NCBI RefSeq assembly: GCF_016595525.1
Contig: NZ_JAENII010000004.1
Span: forward strand, 62,001 to 126,000
From: Haloferula rosea
GTDB lineage: Bacteria > Verrucomicrobiota > Verrucomicrobiia > Verrucomicrobiales > Akkermansiaceae
Direction: 5' to 3'
Length of the DNA stretch: 64,000 nucleotides
How positions within the stretch are numbered: the stretch's first letter is position 1; each line of letters opens with the position of its first letter. The notes beneath the pieces are model-generated. The model was not told the DNA's origin. It did no database searches and saw only the letters and a list, made by a program, of their open reading frames with translations. Below are positions 1-39,941 of this stretch, one piece after another. The position numbers and the translations under genes are program-made.

Positions 1-1911
1 GCGTGGAACGCCACCACCTTCAGCTGCGTCCAGTGCCACGCCCACCCCTACGAGCCGATTCCCCACGAGGACTACTACCGCTTCCTCGCCTTCTTCAACA
101 ACAGCGAGGACGTCGACATCAACAACGACTTCCCCCGCACCAAGGTGGCCGACAAGCCGGAACAGCAGGCCGAAGTGGTCCGACTCGAGCGGGCGATCCG
201 GACCAAACGCACCGAGATCAACCGCACGGCGCGGGAGGTGGCGGAGACCCTCGGCGACTGGCGCACCCTGACCGCCACCAAGACGGGCGCCCACCCCGAC
301 ACCGGGCAACTGGCGCAGAACCCGCAGGGTGAGTTCATCAGCTCCGGCACCAACCCGACCCGCTCCCACTTCCAGATCGAGGCCGAGGCGCAGCCCTTCT
401 CGGCCATGCGCATCCGCATCCTGCCGGAAAGCGATGACCCGAAGAAATGGGACGAACAGGGCGCCGTCATAGGCCGCCTCGTGGCCCGACTTGTCGATGG
501 CGAGGGACAAGCCCGCGAGATCGCCATGCGCGAAGTCATCGCCGACTTCCTCGCCGGGCAGTGGGACCCCAACGAATCCCTCCGCGGTGGAGGCGCAGGC
601 TTCGGCGAGTATCCGATGATGAAGCAGCCACGTACGGCATGGATCGTACCTGCCGAACCCGTCGTGCCCGGACCGGATGAAACGCTCGTACTTGAGATCC
701 ACCATTCCGCCTCGTGCAACGGCGACAACCAGAACACCGTGCTACGCCGCTTCACCGTGGAACTCACCACCGACCCGTCCCTCGTCGACCATGTGAAGGC
801 GGAACCGCGGGCCGCGGCATGGAAGGAACTGGATGCCATCAAGGCTCAGTACGCCGCCATCAAGGGCCGCACGATCCCCACCATGCAGGAACGGGACACC
901 GATGCCACACGTCCGACCCGTCTCTTCATCCGCGGCAACCGCATGAGTCTCGATGAGATCATGGAGCCCGCGATTCCCGTGCTTTTCGATGGTCCCGAGA
1001 ACCCGACCAACCGCCTGGACATGGCGAAGTGGCTCGTCGGCAAGGATAACCCACTGGCCGGACGGGTGCTCGCCAACCGGCTCTGGGCCGAACTCTTCGG
1101 CATCGGCATCGTGGAAACGCTGGAGGACTTCGGAAGTTCCGGCGCCCTCCCGACTCATCCCGAGCTGCTCGACCATCTCGCCCTGCGCCTGCGCGATCAT
1201 CATCAGTGGCACATCAAGCCCTTCCTCAAGGAACTCGTGCTGTCCGCGGCCTACCGTCAATCGCACAAGGCGAAGCCGGAGTTGATGGCGAAGGACCCGA
1301 GGAACCAGCTCGTCGCACGCGGACCACGCCAGCGCCTCACCGCGGAAATGGTGCGCGATCAGGCGCTCAAGGTTTCCGGACTCCTCTCGTCGAAGCAGTT
1401 TGGCCCACCCGTTTACCCCCCGCAGCCGGACGGCGTGTGGAGCACGGTTTACAGCGGTGAGCAGTGGACCACCTCGCAGGGTGAGGACCGCTACCGCCGC
1501 GGCATCTACACCTACGTGCGCCGCACCGCCGGCTTCCCCGGGTTCCTCACCTTCGATGCGCCTTCGCGGGACCTCTGCAGTGCGCGTCGCATCGCGACAA
1601 ACACACCCCTCCAGGCCCTGGTCACGCTCAATGACCCCGCCCACATCGAGTTCGCCCAGGCCTTCGCCGACCGGATTGGAAAAGCCGCACCCGACCTGAC
1701 CGGCCAGCTGATCTGGGCGTATCGGGAGCTCACCCTCGACCAGCCGGCACCTGCCACGCTGGACACCCTCATCGCCCTCCACGGGCAGCTCGTGAAGGAA
1801 CTCACCGCCACCCCGGAAGACTCCACGAAGCTCGCCCCCACGCCCGAGCAGGCCGCCATGGTCATGGTCGCCAACACCCTACTCAACTCCGACCTCGCGC
1901 TGAACCGCTAG
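1..1911 (+). CDS. PSD1 family protein (DUF1549 end + DUF1553), 5' partial
   Basis: The frame is open from base 1, so the N-terminus lies outside the window; 636 codons plus a TAG stop are present. Near the start is a CVQCHAHPYEP segment, the haem-like CxxCH motif typical of the end of DUF1549 domains. Farther on, RLDMAKWLVG, ANRLWAELFG and the TPLQALVTLND region are hallmarks of DUF1553. These large proteins, often with cytochrome c-like motifs, are abundant in Planctomycetes and Verrucomicrobia and are usually followed by a DUF1501 gene, as here (12-nt gap). Their biochemical role is not established; polysaccharide catabolism or envelope roles have been suggested. Family assignment is firm, function is not. 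Confidence 0.88.
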   Translation, partial: AWNATTFSCVQCHAHPYEPIPHEDYYRFLAFFNNSEDVDINNDFPRTKVADKPEQQAEVVRLERAIRTKRTEINRTAREVAETLGDWRTLTATKTGAHPDTGQLAQNPQGEFISSGTNPTRSHFQIEAEAQPFSAMRIRILPESDDPKKWDEQGAVIGRLVARLVDGEGQAREIAMREVIADFLAGQWDPNESLRGGGAGFGEYPMMKQPRTAWIVPAEPVVPGPDETLVLEIHHSASCNGDNQNTVLRRFTVELTTDPSLVDHVKAEPRAAAWKELDAIKAQYAAIKGRTIPTMQERDTDATRPTRLFIRGNRMSLDEIMEPAIPVLFDGPENPTNRLDMAKWLVGKDNPLAGRVLANRLWAELFGIGIVETLEDFGSSGALPTHPELLDHLALRLRDHHQWHIKPFLKELVLSAAYRQSHKAKPELMAKDPRNQLVARGPRQRLTAEMVRDQALKVSGLLSSKQFGPPVYPPQPDGVWSTVYSGEQWTTSQGEDRYRRGIYTYVRRTAGFPGFLTFDAPSRDLCSARRIATNTPLQALVTLNDPAHIEFAQAFADRIGKAAPDLTGQLIWAYRELTLDQPAPATLDTLIALHGQLVKELTATPEDSTKLAPTPEQAAMVMVANTLLNSDLALNR

Positions 1912-8277: not shown

Positions 8278-10185
8278 TCACACCAGGGTTTCCACCATGG
8301 TCAGCACATCCTCGAAGGGGTGGTTCTCAAGCAGCGCGAAGGCATCGTGACGGGTCAGCCTGGCCCGGGTCACCGCCGGGCTTGAGATCCCGCACAGGAA
8401 ACGCGCGAGCTGCCGGCTCCCCTTCAGGCAGGCATGTCCCTCGCGCCGCAGGGCATGCACGGCCGCGAGGCTTTCCTCGTCGATCTCCTCGACCGGCGAG
8501 CGCGGAACCGGAACTGGCTTCACCCCGCGACAGCGGTCGCAGTGACCACAGGGCTCCGCGAGCACTTCCCCGAAGTGCTCCGTGACGAACCCGGTCAGGC
8601 ACCGGTCGGTCTCCGCCAGATCCACCACCCCGTGCAAGCGGTCGAGGTCGGCCGCTTCCCTCTTGCGGAACCTCTCGTCCAGCCGCTCCGCGATCAGCCG
8701 CGGATTCACGTCGTCCCTGAGCAGTCGGTATCCCTGGCGGACGCCGGACTTCTTCAGCACCACATCGCCGGCCTCCTCGAGATAGACCAGGGCGGTCACG
8801 ATCCGGTTCCGGTCTTCGCCGGTTTCCATCGCCACCTCGTCGACCTTGAAGTTGTACCAGCTGCGCCCCTCCTTCGCCGCAGCGAAGATCTTCCTCAGGA
8901 AGCTCTTACGGCGATCATCGTAGCCAAGAAGCATCTTGTCGAAGTCACGCAGGAGTTTCACCGAATAGGTGGAGTAGAACGGCCGGGTCGCGGCGATGAG
9001 GCCTTCCAGTTCCAGATAGGTCAGCAGGGTGTTCACCACCAACGGACGGATGTCATTCACCCCGGAGAGTTCATACACCGACACATCGAACTCGGTGCCC
9101 AGCCTCAGGGTGTGGTCGACGAGATGCTTCACCGCATCCGGGGTCGGCGTGTCGCCGAAAATGAAGTTCTCCAGCGTGACGAGGTCATCCCCGCAGGCGA
9201 GCATCTCGCAGATCGATGGCTTCCCGTCCCGTCCCGCCCGGCCGGTCTCCTGGGAATAATTCTCCAGTGACTTCGGCAGGTTGTAGTGGAACACCGCGCG
9301 GATGTCCGCCTTGTCGATCCCCATGCCGAAGGCGATGGTGGCGACGATGACCCGGGTTTCCCCAGCCATGAATTTTTCCTGAGCCGCCTCGCGGAACTCA
9401 GGGGGAAGCCCCGCATGATAGGCCTGGGCGGACACGCCGTGCTTCTTCAGATAGGTCGCCACCTCCTCCGCGGTCTGTTGGAGCGTCACATACACCACCA
9501 CCGCCCCCTCGAGCTCGCCGAGCCTCCTGAGCAGCCACGGCTTCCGCTCCGCGGCGGTCAGCGGGCTGATCTTGAGGTCGAGGTTGTCACGATGGAAGGA
9601 AAGCTGGACGTGATCGGACTCCGCGATGGCGAACTCCCGGCGGATGTCTTCCGAAACCCCCGGAGTCGCCGTGGCCGTTAGACAGAGCACACGCGGCACC
9701 TTCAGGTCACGACACAGCTTCGCGAGCTTCAGGTAGTCCGGCCTGAAATTGTGCCCCCACTCGGAAATGCAGTGGGCTTCATCGATCGCCACCATGCCGA
9801 TCTTCAGGCGCGCCAGACGCTGGCGGAATCCTTCGTTGGCCAGGCGCTCCGGAGCGACGTAGAGAAGCTTCAGGCTGCCCTTCCTCAGGCCTTCCATGAC
9901 CTCCGCATACTCCTCCGTGGACAGCGTGGAATCCAGACGGGCCGCGGCCACCCCTTTCGCCTTCAAGGCATCGACCTGATCCTTCATCAGGGCGATCAGC
10001 GGAGAAATGACCAGAGTCACCCCATCCAGCATCAGGGCCGGAAGCTGGTAGCAGAGCGACTTCCCGCCACCGGTCGGAAAGACGGCAAGCATCGAGCGCC
10101 CCTCCAACAGCCCATCGACCACCTCCCGCTGACCATCACGGAACCGATCGAATCCAAACCACTTTTTCAGCACCCCCTGCGGCAT
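8278..10185 (-). CDS. recQ: ATP-dependent DNA helicase RecQ
   Basis: This 635-aa superfamily 2 helicase unwinds DNA 3' to 5' in recombination and repair. Visible are the FRDGQREVVDGLL motif 0, Walker A TGGGKS, the DEAHCISEWGHNFR box, SATFGMGIDKA-like motif V (TIAFGMGIDKADIRAV), motif VI QETGRAGRDG, and a zinc cluster ending CGHCDRC in the RQC region. The C-terminus is short and does not show a clear HRDC domain. The ATG at 10185 begins MPQGVLKKWFGF, the usual RecQ N-terminus; an upstream TTG at 10221 is less likely. It stands alone and is convergent with the ars operon. Confidence 0.92.
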   Translation of the reverse strand: MPQGVLKKWFGFDRFRDGQREVVDGLLEGRSMLAVFPTGGGKSLCYQLPALMLDGVTLVISPLIALMKDQVDALKAKGVAAARLDSTLSTEEYAEVMEGLRKGSLKLLYVAPERLANEGFRQRLARLKIGMVAIDEAHCISEWGHNFRPDYLKLAKLCRDLKVPRVLCLTATATPGVSEDIRREFAIAESDHVQLSFHRDNLDLKISPLTAAERKPWLLRRLGELEGAVVVYVTLQQTAEEVATYLKKHGVSAQAYHAGLPPEFREAAQEKFMAGETRVIVATIAFGMGIDKADIRAVFHYNLPKSLENYSQETGRAGRDGKPSICEMLACGDDLVTLENFIFGDTPTPDAVKHLVDHTLRLGTEFDVSVYELSGVNDIRPLVVNTLLTYLELEGLIAATRPFYSTYSVKLLRDFDKMLLGYDDRRKSFLRKIFAAAKEGRSWYNFKVDEVAMETGEDRNRIVTALVYLEEAGDVVLKKSGVRQGYRLLRDDVNPRLIAERLDERFRKREAADLDRLHGVVDLAETDRCLTGFVTEHFGEVLAEPCGHCDRCRGVKPVPVPRSPVEEIDEESLAAVHALRREGHACLKGSRQLARFLCGISSPAVTRARLTRHDAFALLENHPFEDVLTMVETLV

Positions 10186-10286
10186 GCCCGGGAGGATGGC
10201 CGGACCATCCACGGCTGCCAAGGAGCGACCTCACCTGCAGTGAGAATCCAGAGCAATCCCGTCACCCGAGATCACATCCATGCGAC

Positions 10287-10994
10287 TCACCAGCCGAAGA
10301 TGATCGGCGGCACGATAATCTTCACGCCCCCGCCATCATTGGTCTCGGTTTCCTCGATCGCAGTGACCACTTCGTTCTCGAACTCCACCACGATCTTTCC
10401 CCGCTCCTCGCGGGTCACGTGCGAGAGCTGACGAAAGGTCCTGCCAGTCAGTGGATCGCGCACGTAGTTGTAGTGCGAGATCTCCTCATACGCGATGAAT
10501 TCCCAAATCCCGGTGCGCCCCTTCTCCGTCTGACGGGCCGTCGTCTTGGTCGGCTTGCCAAGCGCCTTGCTCACTTCATCGACCGTCATCCCGATGGCCG
10601 GGCGTCCCTCCTCGATCAAGGCGGAGACCTCCATCTGGCGGGTGTAGAGTTTCTTGAGGTTCTCGACGAACTTCGGGTCCTTCGACGCGAATGCCCACGG
10701 AGCGACCCAGCCGGTGACCTTGTTGCCTCCGGTCTTGGCGCTCACGCGGTATGCCTTGTCCGTCATCGCCTGGAGGAAGACCTTTTGCTCGGCCTTCACC
10801 TCCCCGAGCCGGCGCTTGCCTTCCTTGTCGCCGAAAATCGGCGCGTCCTTGATGATCATCAGCTCGATCGGCTTATCGACGTGCTCCTCCAGGTAGATCA
10901 CGTCCGGGTCCGAATCGAGGAGCGACCGGCGCGACTGGGCCGGCGCCACGAGGGTGGCGGCCACGAAGACAAACGCGATAATTCGAGCAAACAT
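10287..10994 (-). CDS. secreted protein with SH3-like and BamE/SmpA-like segments, unknown function
   Basis: The 235-aa product starts with a Sec-type signal peptide (FARIIAFVFVAATLVAPAQS). Residues of about 40-110 look like a bacterial SH3-like fold (NKVTGWVAPWAFAS). The segment IGMTVDEVSKALGKPTKT, followed by GIWEF, matches the GMT-x-x-V-x-x-xLG-x-P pattern of BamE/SmpA-type proteins. It is thus an exported periplasmic or outer-membrane-associated protein, perhaps with an assembly or binding role (inference). It is not obviously in an operon: 101 nt separate it from recQ downstream and 77 nt from sodN upstream. Confidence 0.7.
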   Translation of the reverse strand: MFARIIAFVFVAATLVAPAQSRRSLLDSDPDVIYLEEHVDKPIELMIIKDAPIFGDKEGKRRLGEVKAEQKVFLQAMTDKAYRVSAKTGGNKVTGWVAPWAFASKDPKFVENLKKLYTRQMEVSALIEEGRPAIGMTVDEVSKALGKPTKTTARQTEKGRTGIWEFIAYEEISHYNYVRDPLTGRTFRQLSHVTREERGKIVVEFENEVVTAIEETETNDGGGVKIIVPPIIFGW

Positions 10995-32822: not shown

Positions 32823-34169
32823 TCAGAAATCCAGATAGATTTCCGAGCGCCGGTTGGCGCGGCGGCCATCGGGGTTGTCCTCACCACTTTCGGTGAAGTT
32901 CGGCCGGCGCGGTTGGGTCTGGCCTTCTCCGACGGTCACGATCTGCTTTGGTTCGACACCGCAGCGGATCAGAAAGTCACGGACGCTCAGCGCGCGTTCC
33001 GACGAGAGTTTCTCGTTGTAGTCCTCCGTGCCGAGGGCATCGGTGTGACCGGAAATGGTCAGCTTCTTCTCGGTGTCCAGACGCAGCAGGTCGGCCACGA
33101 TTTCCAGCTGGCGCTCGGTTCGCGGGGTGAGCCCGGCGGCATCGAAATCAAAGTAGAGGACCAGCGTATCGCCGCCCTTCGGGTTCTTCAGCAGCGGGGT
33201 GTAGTGAACGTCGCCCCCAGCGACCCGGCGGGCATAGTCAGCGAGCAGTTGATCCAGATTGATCTCGGTCACGCGCCAGGTCTCATCGGCATCACCGCGA
33301 CGCAGGGTCATGGAAAACTGGGCGAGCTCCGACCCGTCACCCGCCAGCACATTGGCAAGGAACCCGGCGTCCTGCTCACGCTGGAACATGGCGCGGAGAG
33401 GCTTCTGGGGCCGCATCCGGTAGTTGCCCTCTTCAAACAGGATGCACAGGCCGGCGATCTTGGCATCGGAGACGCGGGTGGTGTCCACGAACGCCTTCGC
33501 CAGCTCGAACTGCTGGTGGAAGGTGGCCTGCAGGAAGGCATCGGCAATGCCCAGAGCATCGACATGCAGCGCCTTCGGAGCGACTTCGCCTGGGGCAGGG
33601 GGAAGGGCCATCGAATCGACCCCCCAGGTGCCGTCCTTGCGCAGCAGATCGAAGAACAATCGGTCGCGACCCGGCTCCGCTCCGTCGAGGTGCAGCGCCC
33701 AGCGGGAGTGCTCATTGAGCGCGATCTCACCCACTTCCCGGGCTGGCTCCGGGTGCTGGAACCGCAGCGGCCCGGCCTCGGCCAGGGCAGCCAGACGGGC
33801 GCGGGTCTCAGGCGTCAGCGCCGATTCACCGATCAGGCCGCCGGCGCGCTTGAGATCGCCGGCTTCCAGCGCCTCGCTGATCTCGTTCATGAGTTCAGCC
33901 GGATTGCGTTTGCGGGCACCCAGGCCGGCATTCTCCAGCGCCTCCAGAGGCGACGACGGGGCGTCGCCCTCGGTCTCGGCCAATTCCGGGATGGGATCGA
34001 CTTCAGGCATCGGGGAAGGTTGCTCCTCGATGACGCGGACCGGCTCCTCCACGACGGGAGCCGTCGGCTCGGGGGTCGGCTTCGCGTGGCGGTTGAGATA
34101 CAGGAAGGTGACCAGCGCGCCCAAGGCGAGCGCGCCCAGGATCATGGGGAGTTGGGAACGGGACATCAT
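32823..34169 (-). CDS. OmpA-family peptidoglycan-binding protein, membrane-anchored
   Basis: The 448-aa protein has an N-terminal membrane helix (PMILGALALGALVTFLYL), a Pro/Glu-rich linker of about 50 residues, a middle domain of unknown type, and a C-terminal OmpA domain: LVLYFDFDAAGLTP, ISGHTDALGTEDYNEKLSSERA and RRANRRSEIYLDF. The Asp and Arg used to bind meso-diaminopimelate in this domain are present. It would tether the inner membrane to the wall. It follows the HtrA-type gene (52 nt) in the same direction. Confidence 0.85.
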   Translation of the reverse strand: MMSRSQLPMILGALALGALVTFLYLNRHAKPTPEPTAPVVEEPVRVIEEQPSPMPEVDPIPELAETEGDAPSSPLEALENAGLGARKRNPAELMNEISEALEAGDLKRAGGLIGESALTPETRARLAALAEAGPLRFQHPEPAREVGEIALNEHSRWALHLDGAEPGRDRLFFDLLRKDGTWGVDSMALPPAPGEVAPKALHVDALGIADAFLQATFHQQFELAKAFVDTTRVSDAKIAGLCILFEEGNYRMRPQKPLRAMFQREQDAGFLANVLAGDGSELAQFSMTLRRGDADETWRVTEINLDQLLADYARRVAGGDVHYTPLLKNPKGGDTLVLYFDFDAAGLTPRTERQLEIVADLLRLDTEKKLTISGHTDALGTEDYNEKLSSERALSVRDFLIRCGVEPKQIVTVGEGQTQPRRPNFTESGEDNPDGRRANRRSEIYLDF

Positions 34170-34221: not shown

Positions 34222-35730
34222 TTATCGTTTCCGACGAGAGGTGGCGTCGGCCGAGCCCTGCTGGCGGGGGACCGGCGGGATCAGCACCCGCACCGGTCGG
34301 CCATCGCGAAGGAGCTCGAGCGCCGTCACCTGAGCCGCCGCCGAAGCGGCAAGCTGAAGATTGAAGGCCTCCACATTGGTCACTGGCGTGCGGTTCACCG
34401 AGACGATGCGGTCGCCCACTTCCAGACGATCCGCTGCGAGTGATCCAGGCGTGACCGCACGAACGACAACGCCCTCGCCCGGCCCGCTGACTTCGGTCGC
34501 GAAGACGCCGACAGCCGCCAGAATTTCCTTCGGGTCACGGACGGGTTCCTGTTTCGGCTCAGGCGCCGCCACTTCGGCCACCGCCTCGGCGATCGTGGCC
34601 TGAAGGGTCATGGCTTCACCATCGCGCCAAATCTCGATCTCCACCGTTTCGCCCACCCGGGATCCTTGGACCCGGTTGAACATCTCCGCCATGTTTGAGA
34701 TCTTCTTGCCGCCGAAACTCACCACCACGTCCTTCGGTCTCAGCCCTGCCAACTCGGCCGGTGAACCCTCACCCACGCCGGCAATGACCGCGCCCGTCCC
34801 ATCGTAGTCGAGCATCTGGTTGATGCGGGGATTCAGATCCAGCATGCGCACGCCCAGGTAGCCGCGGATCGGCCGCCCGCGCTCGAGGATGGAATAGAGC
34901 ACCTCCTTCACATCATTCGATGGGATGGAAAAGCCCACGCCTTGGAATCCGGAGGTCATTCCATCCGGCCGATAAATCGCGGAGTTGATGCCGATGATCT
35001 CTCCCTGCAGATTCACCAGCGGCCCACCGGAGTTGCCGGGGTTGATGGCCGCATCGGTCTGGAACAGATCGCGCTGGGTATCGGAGAGCGACCGCTCGAG
35101 CGCGGAGATGATCCCCTGGGTGACCGTCTCACCAAGACCGAAGGGATTGCCGATCGCGAACACCATCTGCCCGCGCCGCACCTGGTCGGAATCGCCGAAC
35201 TTGAGTGGTTGGAATTCCCCCTCCGCATCGATCTTCAGGACCGCCACATCCAGCAGCGGGTCATCCCCGATCAGACTGGCCGTGTAGGCACGCCCATCAT
35301 GCAGTGTGACCTGGATCTGCTGCTGGCCCTTCACCACATGGTGATTGGTGACCAAGTGACCTTCATGAGTCACGATCACGCCCGAGCCCTGACCCTGGGT
35401 GGGCACCGGCCGGACGAGTTGGCGGCCATAGCCATCGAAGAGAAGCTGTGAACGCACCCCGGAGGTGTCGATGCTGACGACCGAGGGAACCACGGCGGCG
35501 GTCAGAAGCGCGCACTCCTCGTTGAGCCGCGTCAGGAGCTCGACCTCGCCGAGCTCCAAGGGTGGACGCTCGGGCAGCGTGAAGGCTTCCGGGCGAAAGC
35601 CGGAACCATCCTCCCCCGCCTTGAACAGGCGGCGCACCCCATCGGTGCCGTTGCGGATCAGAAAGACCACCGCAAAGGCGATGAAGAACACCACCACCAG
35701 TGACAGCAGTCGTCGAAAACCTTGATTCAT
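34222..35730 (-). CDS. degQ: DegQ/DegP-type (HtrA) serine protease with two PDZ domains
   Basis: The 502-aa product has an N-terminal membrane anchor, then a trypsin-like protease with triad His131 (VTNHHVV), Asp161 (LDVAVLK) and Ser234 (NPGNSGGPL) and two PDZ domains (from about residues 280 and 390). Such proteins degrade or refold damaged periplasmic proteins. The start ATG at 35730 is fixed by the membrane helix. A terminator hairpin ends only 5 nt upstream of it, so expression may depend on read-through from the S16 genes or on control at that hairpin. The OmpA-domain gene follows. Confidence 0.9.
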   Translation of the reverse strand: MNQGFRRLLSLVVVFFIAFAVVFLIRNGTDGVRRLFKAGEDGSGFRPEAFTLPERPPLELGEVELLTRLNEECALLTAAVVPSVVSIDTSGVRSQLLFDGYGRQLVRPVPTQGQGSGVIVTHEGHLVTNHHVVKGQQQIQVTLHDGRAYTASLIGDDPLLDVAVLKIDAEGEFQPLKFGDSDQVRRGQMVFAIGNPFGLGETVTQGIISALERSLSDTQRDLFQTDAAINPGNSGGPLVNLQGEIIGINSAIYRPDGMTSGFQGVGFSIPSNDVKEVLYSILERGRPIRGYLGVRMLDLNPRINQMLDYDGTGAVIAGVGEGSPAELAGLRPKDVVVSFGGKKISNMAEMFNRVQGSRVGETVEIEIWRDGEAMTLQATIAEAVAEVAAPEPKQEPVRDPKEILAAVGVFATEVSGPGEGVVVRAVTPGSLAADRLEVGDRIVSVNRTPVTNVEAFNLQLAASAAAQVTALELLRDGRPVRVLIPPVPRQQGSADATSRRKR

Positions 35731-35734
35731 GGGC

Positions 35735-35774
35735 AAAAAAGTTCGGGGCTCAGCCTTGCGACTGGGCCCCGAAC
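35735..35774 (-). terminator. terminator/attenuator abutting the degQ start
   Basis: On the minus strand GTTCGGGGC and GCCCCGAAC (plus-strand 35766-35774 and 35741-35749) form a perfect 9-bp stem with a 16-nt loop followed by six T residues (35735-35740). It terminates the S16 protease transcript, and leaves just 4 nt before the degQ ATG. Confidence 0.75.
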
Positions 35775-35836
35775 CGGAGGAATTTGCAAGTAAATCCAGA
35801 GGACGAAGCGATTCGTCATCCGGGTCGAGCCATCGA

Positions 35837-37615
35837 TCAGCCGCCCATGTCTTCCAGAATCTCCGGGTCGGACACGAGCTTCTTGTAGACCGCCTGCATC
35901 GATTCCATCTCTTCCTTCAGACGGTTTCCATAGGCCTTCGCCTTCTCGTCATCACCCGGCCCATCGGCCACCGACTTGCAGATGGTTACCACGGACTTGT
36001 GATACTTCTTGAGTCGTGGGTCGATCGCTTCCTCAAGCGTCTCAAGCACCTCGAGGGCTTCCTTCGCGTCATTGACCGCTTCCTTGTCGAAGTCGAACTC
36101 GTCGCCCTCGTCCTCATCGTCGTCATTGAAACGACTCGTGAAGACCGCCCGGCCGACGGTGCGCAGGGTGGCGGAGGTCGCAATCTCGATCTGGTTCAGG
36201 GTGCCTCCAACCGTCAGCACCTTGGAGTGCTCATCCTTGCCCTTCTGGAGCAGGAGTTTGGCGGAAAGGTGGTTCGGCATGCGCTCGATGACCGTTTCAA
36301 GACGCTTCTGCACCTCGGCATTGGCAAGGACCTCCTCGCCCTGATCACGCACCACATCGGCGACCGCCTTGAATAGCTCCAGGGTCTCGGTGACTTCGGC
36401 GGACTTCTCGGCCCTCGAAATGGCATAGGCCTGATCGAAGGTCTTCAAGGTGAAGATCTGGATATCAAGCAGCTGCTCGATGCCATCGAGCAAAAGCACA
36501 TCACCGATCTCCTTGCCGTTGTCGATCGGGATGCCGACGATCTTGCATCCCCGCTTCGTCGCTCCGCGGATCTTGGCTGCGGCACCACCGATCTTCTGGA
36601 CCATGCCATCCGCCGTCATGTCACCCGTGCAGGCGAACTGCTCGTCGAGCTTCTCACCCGAGAAGAGTGAATCGAGGAGCAGGGTGAAGACTGTCGCCGC
36701 CGAGGGGCCGTCCTTCAGCACATACTTGTCCTGGAAGCCGAGCTCGATCTTGTAGCCGCTTGGAATCTTCTCCGGCTCACTGTCGTAGCGGATGCGGAGG
36801 AACTTGATCACTTCCTCAAGGCAGCCACCCATCATCGGACCCACGTCCTGGTTGAAGGTGAAGAGGAGGTCGTCGACATCGTCCTCACGCAAGGCCGTGG
36901 CATTCACCGTGGAGGCCGAACCTGCCAGATTGCCATTTCCCAGCTGGCGGACCACCAGGCCGTTCACACGACTCTGCGACTGCGCGAAGCGCTCGCCCTT
37001 GCCGCCAGGCATCTCGACTTCCTTCTTCTCAAAAACCGTTTCCTCCTGCTCCCACGGATTGCGGGCCTTGTGGATCGGGCGACCGAGCATGTCCTTCCAG
37101 TCCGCCTTGTGGCCGTCATCCTCCAGTTCGTCGCGCTGTTTCTCGTGCTTCGACGCGTAGTCGCCTTCCGGATCAAGCCGATAACCGATGTCGGAGATGT
37201 AGGCCGCACACGTTAGATTATCCTCGTTGTCCTTCTTGCGGACCAAGGCGCGCACCGCACTCGCCAGTCGACGACTGACACGGCTCTTGTCGGCGGATTC
37301 AGAAATCGTCTCCTGCTTGTCCTTGAGTTGTTCGAGGGTGCTGTCGACCTTCTCGTTGTCGGAATCCAAGCGAGCCGCGATCGCCAAGGCGTGCGCCCGG
37401 AGCTCGAAGTCGACTTCATCCTCCTCGTCGAAGTCCCGCGCTACGGAGACCAGCGCACTCACCGCACCGGAACGATCGAAGCGGTCCAGCTCGACGGCCT
37501 TCGTGTCGAAGATCTCCTTTTCGAGATCAGGCGGCCGGTAGGCATCAGCGTGAGCCAACCCTCCCCACAGGAGGCCCAGCGCAAGGACGAGAACAGAGAA
37601 AACACGCGGAATCAT
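35837..37615 (-). CDS. secreted Lon-type (S16) protease without ATPase domain
   Basis: The 592-aa product starts with a Sec signal (MIPRVFSVLVLALGLLWGGLAHA). Residues of about 290-400 match the proteolytic domain of Lon: KDGPSAATVFTLLL has the nucleophile Ser305, and TGDMTADGMVQKIGGAAAKIRGATKRG has Lys348. The 43-residue spacing equals that of Ser679 and Lys722 in E. coli Lon. No AAA+ domain or Walker motif is present. The flanking regions are helical, acidic and of unknown fold. It is therefore a periplasmic ATP-independent S16 enzyme in prediction. It lies 53 nt after a paralogue with a degenerate S16 domain. Confidence 0.8.
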   Translation of the reverse strand: MIPRVFSVLVLALGLLWGGLAHADAYRPPDLEKEIFDTKAVELDRFDRSGAVSALVSVARDFDEEDEVDFELRAHALAIAARLDSDNEKVDSTLEQLKDKQETISESADKSRVSRRLASAVRALVRKKDNEDNLTCAAYISDIGYRLDPEGDYASKHEKQRDELEDDGHKADWKDMLGRPIHKARNPWEQEETVFEKKEVEMPGGKGERFAQSQSRVNGLVVRQLGNGNLAGSASTVNATALREDDVDDLLFTFNQDVGPMMGGCLEEVIKFLRIRYDSEPEKIPSGYKIELGFQDKYVLKDGPSAATVFTLLLDSLFSGEKLDEQFACTGDMTADGMVQKIGGAAAKIRGATKRGCKIVGIPIDNGKEIGDVLLLDGIEQLLDIQIFTLKTFDQAYAISRAEKSAEVTETLELFKAVADVVRDQGEEVLANAEVQKRLETVIERMPNHLSAKLLLQKGKDEHSKVLTVGGTLNQIEIATSATLRTVGRAVFTSRFNDDDEDEGDEFDFDKEAVNDAKEALEVLETLEEAIDPRLKKYHKSVVTICKSVADGPGDDEKAKAYGNRLKEEMESMQAVYKKLVSDPEILEDMGG

Positions 37616-37667
37616 GCGTTCCGCTTACCTCCCACCATCACAGATGGAAAGATCAAAGCTCAGAGAT

Positions 37668-39461
37668 TCAGCGGGATCGTTCCCGGTCGGGCAGCGGGTA
37701 CTCATCCTTGTCGCCCGCCGCCGCGGTCAGCAGGGCCATCGTTTCGACATAATCAAGATAAGTCGCCCGGACTCGGGATGGGATTTTCCCCCGATCGCTC
37801 TCATCCATTCTCTTCAAATCCGCAGCGAGACTCGAAAGGCTCTTGGCCGCACTGTAGGCAGGATCGTGCAGCTCGGATCGATCCGACACGGACCCATACA
37901 GCTTCTCCACGTCCTCGAGCATTTCGCGGCACTCTCCCTCGGCTTTCGACAGCGCCGAGTTCGACATCGAATCCCAGCGATCCTCCAGCACCTTGCCCAT
38001 CGGCCTGAGTGCCGAGCGCAGCTCCATCGCGTAGATCTTGCGGTCCAGACGTTTCGGCCAGCTCGAGGTTCCACGCAGTGCCAGCATCCGGGCCGAGGCA
38101 TGCTGCGGGAATCCCGAGACAATCTGCCCAAGGCGCTGCTGGGTGGATGAGTGACTGACGAAGCTACCGAGCGATCGCGTCCCCTTCGCATCCCTGATCA
38201 TCTTGAAGCCATTCAGCGCCGTGAGCAGCTCCTCGCTTGGCTGACTCGAACTCAGACTGAGCAGATCATCCACATCGTCCGCCAGCAGCACTTCATAGCG
38301 GAAGAAGAAGTCGGATTTCCCCAGCGTCAGCAGGGGAGGCAGGTATTCGCGCATGGCATTCGGAATCACCAGACGCCCGCCCGACTTGTCATCTTCGCCG
38401 GCGTCACTCAGCGCCCGAATGGTCTCCCAGAAGCGGTTCGGACCCGCGAGGGATTTGTCGTCGTCGATCGCCGCGAACACCATGCCATCCGGCGGAACCC
38501 CGGTGAACGCCGCATTGGCCATCACCACCAGCAAGCCCCTCAGGGCACCCGCATTGCGGGAAATATTCATCGCGACGCCCTTCGGAAGATTCAGGCTCAT
38601 CGACAAGCCATCCGGGAGACTACCATGACGAGCTTCCAGAAACTCGAAGAGCGCCTCATTCGACCTCTTGGAAGCGGAATTCCAGTCTTCACCCGGAAGC
38701 TCCACCACCATCTTCTTGCCATCCGATTTCGCCCAGGTCTTCAGCGTGAACTCGACCGGCCGCGTGAACGACTTCTTCTCCTCGGTCATGTAGTAGCGGA
38801 CCGGCATCGAGCAGGTCACTTCACTGAGAAGGATCTTTGCCACCTGCTGCTCGGGCTCCTTGTCTTCACCCTCATCCCCACCGGACATGTCCGGCTCGTT
38901 GCCGGTATCCGTTTCAACCACATCCGGTTCCTTCTCCTTCCCGAACCGGTTCAAACCCGCCACCCAGTCTTTCCACGCCCCGCGCTCGCCCGCGTCCCCA
39001 CGCTTCAGCGCCACCGGATGCTGCGGGTCCACCTTCACCAGGACATCGCTCAGACAGGCCCCCAGCGCCTGGCCGTCCTCACCCGCCTCCGGTTGCTCCA
39101 ACCAACCTAACAGGTCCCACGCACGTGCCTGCGCCAGATCCACTTCGCGCTCCTCCCCGCGCGGCACCTCGCCACCATCCTTGAGCTGGTCCACCAAATC
39201 ACGCACTTGGTTGTTAGATGGGTCAAGCGCCTGCGACAGCGCGAGGAGCTGCGCCACCGTTCGGGCATTCGCCGGTTGGTCCGGATCCATCTGACCCGCG
39301 AGCACGACCAGTTGACGCGACAGCTTCGTCATCGTGTCGACATCCACCGGCAGCTTGTCGCGACGGAAGGGGACCGGCCCTTCGGACGGGGGGACAAAGG
39401 CAGCACAGGCCGAGCCGGCCATGGCCAGCAGGAGGAAAAGGAGGCGTCGCATCACAGACAT
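37668..39461 (-). CDS. secreted S16-fold pseudoprotease, paralogue of the downstream gene
   Basis: The 597-aa product has a signal peptide (MRRLLFLLLAMAGSACA). Its residues of about 270-400 line up with the neighbouring S16 domain: FEFLEARHGSLPDGL with KFLRIRYDSEPEKIP, SRNAGALRGLLVVMANAAFTG with KDGPSAATVFTLLLDSLFSG, and WETIRAL with AAKIRGA. At the dyad positions the Ser is Ala306 and the Lys is Thr347. It is thus predicted catalytically dead. An acidic linker (residues 175-205) precedes this domain. It is the first gene of the pair; ATGs at 39461 and 39452 are both possible. Confidence 0.7.
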   Translation of the reverse strand: MSVMRRLLFLLLAMAGSACAAFVPPSEGPVPFRRDKLPVDVDTMTKLSRQLVVLAGQMDPDQPANARTVAQLLALSQALDPSNNQVRDLVDQLKDGGEVPRGEEREVDLAQARAWDLLGWLEQPEAGEDGQALGACLSDVLVKVDPQHPVALKRGDAGERGAWKDWVAGLNRFGKEKEPDVVETDTGNEPDMSGGDEGEDKEPEQQVAKILLSEVTCSMPVRYYMTEEKKSFTRPVEFTLKTWAKSDGKKMVVELPGEDWNSASKRSNEALFEFLEARHGSLPDGLSMSLNLPKGVAMNISRNAGALRGLLVVMANAAFTGVPPDGMVFAAIDDDKSLAGPNRFWETIRALSDAGEDDKSGGRLVIPNAMREYLPPLLTLGKSDFFFRYEVLLADDVDDLLSLSSSQPSEELLTALNGFKMIRDAKGTRSLGSFVSHSSTQQRLGQIVSGFPQHASARMLALRGTSSWPKRLDRKIYAMELRSALRPMGKVLEDRWDSMSNSALSKAEGECREMLEDVEKLYGSVSDRSELHDPAYSAAKSLSSLAADLKRMDESDRGKIPSRVRATYLDYVETMALLTAAAGDKDEYPLPDRERSR

Positions 39462-39533: not shown

Positions 39534-39941
39534 ATGAACCCCGAAACCGACCGCCCCCAACTGACCACCCGGGAAGAAGTGATGTTCTTCGATACCGACT
39601 GCGGCCAGGTGGTCCACAACATCGCTTACCTCCGGATGATCGAAACCTGCCGCACCCGGCTTGCCTCAAAGATGGGCATGGATCTCGCATCGATGTCGGA
39701 AACCCGCCTGTTCCCCGTCGTCACCCGCACCGAGATCGACTACCGCCGACCCGCCAAGCTCGGCGACTGGCTCCTCATCCACGGAAGCCTTGGCGAAGTC
39801 GGGGCCGCCCGCTTCTGGTGCCACTTCGAAGTGCGTCGCGAGAGCAACGACGACCTCCTGATCACCTGCAAACAATCTCTCGCACTAGTGCAAATGCCTG
39901 ATGGTAAGCCAGTTAGACTGCCCAAGGAGTGGAACTATTGA
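39534..39941 (+). CDS. YbgC-like hotdog acyl-CoA thioesterase
   Basis: The 135-aa protein has the YbgC/4-hydroxybenzoyl-CoA thioesterase pattern: VMFFDTDCGQVVHNIAYLRMIETCRTRL with the catalytic Asp and the HNIAYL strand, then FPVVTRTEIDYRRPAKLGDWL. It hydrolyses acyl-CoA thioesters; in other bacteria YbgC sits with tol-pal genes. The ATG at 39534 matches the family start; the long upstream frame is a shadow of the S16 paralogue on the other strand. It is not in an obvious operon. Confidence 0.85.
   Translation: MNPETDRPQLTTREEVMFFDTDCGQVVHNIAYLRMIETCRTRLASKMGMDLASMSETRLFPVVTRTEIDYRRPAKLGDWLLIHGSLGEVGAARFWCHFEVRRESNDDLLITCKQSLALVQMPDGKPVRLPKEWNY

Follow-up and report, generated by a model that had tools for sequence, protein, structure and literature searches.

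A putatively exported Lon-type protease without an ATPase domain and its pseudoprotease paralogue in Haloferula rosea and related Verrucomicrobiales

What would a protease of the Lon type do in the cell envelope, without an ATPase of its own and beside a paralogue that has lost the catalytic residues? This question is raised by a stretch of 64,000 nucleotides of the Haloferula rosea genome (Akkermansiaceae, Verrucomicrobiales; assembly GCF_016595525.1, contig NZ_JAENII010000004.1, positions 62,001 to 126,000), called the window hereafter, in which two minus-strand genes separated by 52 bp were found where a preliminary description of the sequence had placed them. Lon is the textbook ATP-dependent cytoplasmic protease. 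The downstream gene of the pair encodes P0001, which carries the Ser-Lys dyad of Lon, and the upstream gene encodes P0002, counted as 597 residues from the ATG at 39461 of an open reading frame (ORF) that opens further up, at 39617. In the reading that we favour, and to which we give about an even chance, P0001 is an envelope S16 protease without ATPase and P0002 an old pseudoprotease paralogue (pseudo-Lon), probably joined with it in a mixed assembly. Throughout, dead denotes a sequence in which Ser or Lys of the dyad is missing, a definition by which no full-length row of the active kind was caught, and handles beginning with L and G stand for loci and genomes, respectively.

By dyad, motif, spacing, Pfam score and predicted fold, P0001 is assigned to the S16 (Lon-type) serine peptidases. 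It matches Pfam Lon_C with an E-value of 5.6e-11 (42.8 bits, cut-off 21.1), no AAA+, PDZ or LON family is listed in the same scan, and the NCBIfam lon model gives 40.9 bits against a cut-off of 608, which sets it apart from the ATP-dependent LonA/LonB proteases with AAA+ in the chain. Ser305 lies within the motif KDGPSA and Lys348 within IGGAAAK, 43 residues apart, the same spacing as that of Ser679 and Lys722 in E. coli Lon (numbering of PMC2605481). The dyad is intact in all 18 distinct full-length rows of the active kind from the Akkermansiaceae. An AlphaFold2 model built from 20 rows (mean pLDDT 80.5, pTM 0.63) superposes on the catalytic domain of E. coli Lon 1rr9 with Z 21.9 and an rmsd of 2.0 over 180 aligned residues (VIA-align), and its Foldseek match to Lon reaches a target-normalised TM of 0.88. 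Pfam, NCBIfam and alignment thus agree with the earlier description of the downstream gene as a Lon-type domain with this dyad and without AAA+.

Homology of P0002 is visible through its neighbour and not through family models, since P0002 has no Pfam match below E 0.08 (chance level) and no NCBIfam match, and Lon_C was not listed at E 0.1 for any of the 31 members of its alignment (A2; eight families were listed, with one member each). Two-sequence BLASTP aligns P0002 with P0001 over nearly the whole length at E 5e-7, and profile-profile comparison (hhalign) gives a probability of 100% and an E-value of 2.4e-39 over 537 columns; hence paralogy of the two, full-length and collinear, is solid on sequence grounds and well above chance. 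As had been described, the upstream gene aligns through the dyad region with Ala306 in the Ser column and Thr347 in the Lys column. Among 53 dead rows (50 distinct, three copies) none has Lys at the dyad and seven have Ser there by alignment, and Trp345, two residues ahead of the former Lys, is invariant across the 31 dead sequences of A2. The P0002 model was built from eight dead rows and zero active rows, to avoid importing the Lon fold (pLDDT 74.4, pTM 0.56), and it superposes on the Lon proteolytic domain 6v11 with Z 14.7 and an rmsd of 2.7 over 175 aligned residues (VIA-align), so that the structural check suggested at the outset came out positively for both proteins as regards the fold. 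Helices 345-354 in the active and 344-353 in the dead model place Lys348 and Thr347 equivalently. The top Foldseek match of the dead model is the C-terminal domain of BrxL (8eil, E 8.9e-5), followed by rows of Lon and ComM, a likeness seen for the Lon-like domain only. The Lon-fold domains of BrxL and ComM are not known to act as proteases and are parts of AAA+ proteins acting on DNA. From collinear homology, predicted Lon fold and loss of the dyad across its relatives, P0002 is classed as a pseudo-S16 paralogue.

Distribution of the two genes indicates that the pair is conserved and that its dead member is the more widespread one. With a threshold of E 1e-3, and counting cross-matches and canonical Lon, P0001 has matches in 60 of 97 relatives and P0002 in 54. 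In a survey of 195 genomes of the Akkermansiaceae, whose listed matches of active and dead profiles were sorted by hand, 46 full-length active places were found in 45 genomes, of which 38 adjoin a dead gene at a distance of 46-243 bp; conservation of the neighbourhood, which had been proposed for survey, is thereby borne out. At the eight remaining places, the dead gene stands at the end of a different contig (G150, G166), is 1838 bp away (G153) or lies elsewhere in the genome (G209 and the second copy of G002), and for G135, G148 and G191 none is among the listed rows. A dead gene is listed in 127 of the 195 genomes (123 strong and 4 partial matches; a tally of 133 includes six with weak matches only, whose rows were not listed) and accompanies the active one in 42 of the 45 genomes, while 85 of the 127 carry no full-length active gene, 14 of these 85 having elsewhere a short Lon of this kind that stands alone. 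Within the genus, the dead gene is present in 17 of 18 genomes and the active one in 6, leaving 11 of the 17 without it. At E 1e-25 the active profile is matched in 53 of 141 genomes of the order, a few via dead forms, and in 5 of a phylum sample of 240, all within this order. That pseudo-Lon is retained more widely than the intact protease suggests that it has a job of its own.

Selection on the two genes was estimated as dN/dS by the Nei-Gojobori method. Of the six closest pairs of dead genes, the three with an adjacent active gene gave 0.27, 0.17 and 0.15, as against 0.13, 0.06 and 0.03 for the active genes of the same pairs, and the three without an adjacent active gene gave 0.17, 0.25 and 0.22 (one of these pairs being L078/L084, whose genomes have a short exported Lon elsewhere). 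Comparison of the window with L041 and L043 gave 0.43 and 0.36 for the dead and 0.14 and 0.17 for the active gene, at dS above 1. The dead gene is therefore under purifying selection with or without the neighbour, and less constrained than its active partner.

As to the origin of the dead forms, a quick tree with the catalytic columns included, computed with one poorly filled outgroup row, unites the 49 dead rows, all of them, in a single clade (SH-aLRT 95). In a second tree, computed on the 71 rows left after the catalytic columns had been taken out and another 26 rows dropped (some of which were not near-duplicates), the 31 dead rows of the Akkermansiaceae cluster (100/98), and the placement of dead rows of other families is not resolved: three changes are implied, and a single change in 14% of 200 bootstrap trees. 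The AU test rejects neither one clade of all dead forms (p 0.433) nor one clade of the family's own dead and full-length active forms (p 0.426). Separate losses of the dyad seem plain at L217 and L216. The former (L217:5576-12616) holds three tandem Lon genes of this kind, with Arg for the catalytic Lys in the middle copy, apparently a recent inactivation; L216 has a copy with Met, and at L213 two dead copies follow each other. Tandems in which both copies are active occur at L093, L094, L120, L218 and L223. A copy at L215 was considered as active and left uncounted, since the letters S and K are present but the motif reads RLDMESAD. In other families the stop of the dead gene overlaps the start of the active one by 4 bp at L057, L088 and L208, and at L053 the dead gene closely precedes an active gene whose start is unsure.

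Both window proteins have a hydrophobic N-terminal stretch behind basic residues, resembling ordinary signal peptides, and may be exported, in agreement with the signal peptides described for both genes as far as signal-like N-termini go, by a permissive hydropathy rule and not by SignalP. The rule takes the best 12-residue hydrophobic stretch within the first 130 residues. Among rows labelled as Akkermansiaceae it holds for all 23 active ones and for 35 of the 43 dead ones (a basic residue precedes in 22 and 33, respectively; one other-family row, L095, stands within the active set, and at L072 and L063 the best stretch lies off the likely signal). Among rows with the label of another family it holds for 23 of the 26 active and 3 of the 7 dead. 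An extracytoplasmic setting is further supported by fusions in active relatives elsewhere in the order, since in 4 of 10 scanned Lon_C is preceded by Lectin_C (L111, L113, L115) or CBM96 (L119). These fusions lie at L111:4849-7143, L113:4762-7104, L115:4852-7113 and L119:500-2776, with two matched stretches in each C-type lectin fusion. Coordinates of the pair and of its neighbours in the window are collected in Table 1.

Table 1. Positions in the window of the Lon-type pair, its candidate functional residues and the adjacent features
Feature	Position	Strand	Remarks
Pseudo-Lon gene (P0002, dead paralogue, 597 aa)	37668..39461	-	Lon-fold domain lacking the dyad, between helical N- and C-terminal regions; N-terminus signal-like
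P0002 Lon-like domain, residues ~213-409	38235..38825	-	VIA-align 6v11; range 213..409 in several rows
P0002 Ala306 codon, catalytic Ser column	38544..38546	-	alignment
P0002 Trp345-Glu346-Thr347; Thr in catalytic Lys column	38421..38429	-	alignment
P0002 signal-peptide-like N-terminus, ~residues 1-20	39402..39461	-	hydropathy rule only
LonA-type S16 protease gene (P0001, active, 592 aa), signal-like N-terminus	35837..37615	-	
P0001 Lon proteolytic domain, residues ~212-404	36404..36982	-	VIA-align 1rr9
P0001 Ser305 codon (catalytic Ser)	36701..36703	-	invariant in A1 (16 rows) and A4 (20 rows)
P0001 Lys348 codon (catalytic Lys)	36572..36574	-	invariant in A1 (16 rows) and A4 (20 rows)
P0001 signal-peptide-like N-terminus, ~residues 1-24	37544..37615	-	hydropathy rule only
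GC-rich hairpin followed by six T, between active gene and HtrA	35735..35774	-	likely intrinsic terminator; window only
GGATTTACTTGC, one mismatch to block GGATTTCCTTGC	35786..35797	-	possible htrA promoter element
HtrA/DegQ-type protease, hydrophobic N-terminus, PDZ domains	34222..35730	-	neighbour, probably separate unit here
OmpA-domain protein, hydrophobic N-terminus	32823..34169	-	neighbour
Thioesterase (4HBT_2)	39534..39941	+	opposite strand, upstream of dead gene

Taken as a mechanism, the favoured reading would have the active S16 protease working in the envelope without ATPase, with pseudo-Lon as the more constant resident, having kept the Lon fold and both helical flanks and lost the dyad. 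Pseudo-Lon would have a function independent of the protease, most likely the binding of unfolded or of specific envelope proteins. In genomes that also have the active gene, both products would be co-transcribed and co-expressed and would probably form one mixed assembly, in which pseudo-Lon might bind substrate or shape the ring and the active subunit would cut. ClpR with ClpP is a known pseudoprotease/protease set, and both ClpR/ClpP and FtsHi/FtsH are ATP-dependent systems with proven assemblies. FtsHi with FtsH is described as a set of this kind (PMC8197885), and the Lon pair resembles both systems in that active and inactive paralogues are retained together, its own assembly being presumed.

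Several points weigh against this reading. It is built on sequence comparison and predicted models. The hydropathy rule is permissive enough that internal stretches also pass in 10 of 23 active and 25 of 43 dead rows. The dead protein evolves much faster than the active one (49% versus 79% identity in one genome pair), which would be expected under weak constraint no less than under a new role; an in-frame stop lies within the match in eight listed dead rows (some of these perhaps marking the gene end), and the dead copy at L101 is split in two ORFs. The register is less sure at the Ser column than at the Lys column, because the helix there starts at 304 in the active and at 301 in the dead model, so that Ser305 sits one residue in and Ala306 five. 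The 85 genomes counted as lacking a full-length active gene are so counted by a search that scored at most six first-look candidates per genome, with BLAST agreeing in the genus. The two genes may also be neighbours because they arose by tandem duplication and not because they act together.

The preliminary description had suggested that the dead protein might serve the active one within a complex, as scaffold, adaptor or regulator. Taken strictly, with P0002 dedicated to P0001 and the dead-only genomes as remnants after loss of the active gene, this is rather unlikely, even though adjacency at 38 of 46 active places, presence of the dead gene in 42 of 45 active-gene genomes and the stop/start overlap at three loci of other families speak for it. 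The partnership stands as adjacency and is weakened as servitude, because 85 of the 127 genomes with a dead gene, among them 11 of the 17 within the genus, have no full-length active one and htrA has a separate upstream region in most of the genus; moreover, dN/dS of dead pairs without an adjacent active gene (0.17-0.25) is similar to that of pairs with one, bearing in mind that the L078/L084 genomes have a short exported Lon elsewhere.

At the opposite end, P0002 could have taken up an unrelated role, such as binding of ligands or peptides in the envelope, with the active protease as a mere neighbour. The wider occurrence of the dead gene and its fast divergence would fit, as would the Trp that is invariant two positions ahead of the lost Lys, suggesting a filled pocket, and the several dead loci with neither such a protease gene nor HtrA directly downstream. 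This is nevertheless unlikely, given that adjacency of the pair is kept across genera and that dead/active tandems recur elsewhere in the order.

A third alternative, that the dead protein serves HtrA and not the active Lon, turns on the genes that follow. The Pfam scan finds downstream of the Lon pair an HtrA protein with Trypsin_2 and PDZ and an OmpA-domain protein, and HtrA lies downstream on the same strand at 19 of 39 dead-gene loci, 6 with the active gene between and 13 without, in four genera; OmpA is found at 15 of the 39. Upstream of htrA, the block GGATTTCCTTGC is present at 13 of the 15 loci that belong to the genus. At 11 of these it stands with at most two mismatches, 63-71 bp ahead of the htrA start (equalled by 0-2 of 500 letter shuffles), L075 has it without mismatch ahead of an unsure htrA start, and at L068 it was identified by eye. 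The block, possibly a lineage-specific promoter element, was not found at L043 and L044 nor at four loci of other genera (L079, L081, L082, L085). In the window, a hairpin formed by GTTCGGGGC/GCCCCGAAC and followed by six T ends directly ahead of the HtrA start, and a run of at least five T ahead of the htrA start occurs in the window only and at none of the other loci compared. A promoter/terminator scan returned no promoter-like site and missed the hairpin, and its five terminator-like sites versus 4.0 expected amount to no signal. From the upstream block and the terminator-like hairpin, HtrA-OmpA is probably a unit of its own in the window and most of the genus. An operon joining the pair to HtrA-OmpA as one complex, also considered, is unsupported for the window given hairpin and block. 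The pair does stand just before HtrA and OmpA as first described, but 13 of 15 genus loci have a separate htrA block. Service to HtrA would draw on the 13 loci without an active gene between and on the six loci that lack the block (L043, L044 and four in other genera), where one transcript with htrA is possible; it is highly unlikely in view of the separate block, the hairpin and the fact that no HtrA was found beside six active-plus-dead loci outside the genus, two of which lie near a contig end.

There is only a slight chance that in vivo the active protein processes nothing but itself, or has no activity outside the cell, and so is no protease there, as might be drawn from the inactivity of purified anchor-less YlbL (PMC6051672), for the dyad is kept in 18 of 18 distinct full-length rows and active dN/dS is 0.03-0.13 in the three closest pairs.

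The 4HBT_2 thioesterase lies upstream of the dead gene on the opposite strand at 31 of 39 loci of the Akkermansiaceae (2.3 kb away at L076), and a divergent thioesterase is also present at L053 and L214. Proteins of about 400 residues, alike by eye, follow the dead gene in three genomes of one genus (L070:8436-9644, L071:4859-6100, L073:5287-6543), the two scanned, of L070 and L071, having no Pfam match. At L072, a gene that begins 110 bp downstream of the dead gene (8342-10345) encodes a protein in which ankyrin repeats are joined to an L,D-transpeptidase (YkuD) domain.

With regard to known relatives, P0001 shares with LonA (E. coli Lon, TIGR00763) the proteolytic fold, the KDGPSA motif and the dyad spacing, and differs in having no LON or AAA+ match and a signal-like N-terminus. 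SepM, an S16 peptidase that is pheromone-processing by its family name (NCBIfam NF041438), acts outside the cell. Its model matches P0001 weakly (E 1.3e-5; 24.4 bits against a cut-off of 200, with only residues 302-363 aligned), and with no PDZ family listed for it either, P0001 is not assigned to the SepM/PDZ-Lon type. YlbL of Bacillus subtilis has a Lon domain with an S234/K279 dyad, no AAA+, a PDZ domain and a transmembrane segment, is thought to lie outside the cell, and showed no protease activity when purified without its membrane anchor (PMC6051672). P0001 resembles it in Lon domain, Ser-Lys dyad and lack of AAA+, and differs in its helical regions at both ends, a dyad spacing of 43 versus 45 and the lack of a PDZ match. 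Proteins of the PDZ-Lon type are reported from actinobacteria and firmicutes (PMC6411480). A survey of 2008 counts 117 Lon homologues, including two 'SPHs' apparently without catalytic residues, and places 39 under an architecture of Lon_C alone (PMC2605481). The kind of protein is not new, since AAA-free S16 proteins outside the cytoplasm are already known (YlbL, PMC6051672; SepM). Literature searches, covering few subscription journals, did not meet, in titles or abstract openings, with the Lon family of this order, its architecture, the pseudo-Lon or the pairing. New as far as this literature goes are a family of this order with helical flanks and some lectin or CBM fusions, its recurrent pseudo-Lon paralogues, and a bacterial family in which no intact LonA was found.

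The last point concerns the cytoplasm of these bacteria. In the genome of the window (97.5% complete), the two Lon_C matches at E 0.1 are P0001 and a ComM-like protein, so named from its sequence. No lon passed the curated cut-off in 145 genomes of the Akkermansiaceae with at most six candidates scored per genome, in a search whose control passed it in 8 of 14 genomes, and Lon_C matches below E 1e-80, of LonA size, were found in 16 of the 38 genomes that represent the order's other families and in 0 of 59 of this family. Broken lon-like pieces with in-frame stops at G134:C55:10585-13102, the sole lon match in the 145 genomes, may be a remnant or contamination. It is possible, if doubtful, that bacteria without LonA possess an ATP-free extracytoplasmic Lon-fold system, in which pseudo-Lon would be the old, central component and bind envelope proteins by itself, armed in some lineages by the active Lon in a mixed ring, and that this pairing has arisen more than once in the order. 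An exported branch of this sort with a pseudoenzyme of its own, in a family in which no intact LonA was found, would show that proteolysis in the envelope can be carried out by a Lon fold that relies on no ATP-driven unfolding, and the pair would be a natural case for how pseudoproteases gain functions of their own, a question made directly testable by deletion through the occurrence of dead-only and active-plus-dead species within one genus.

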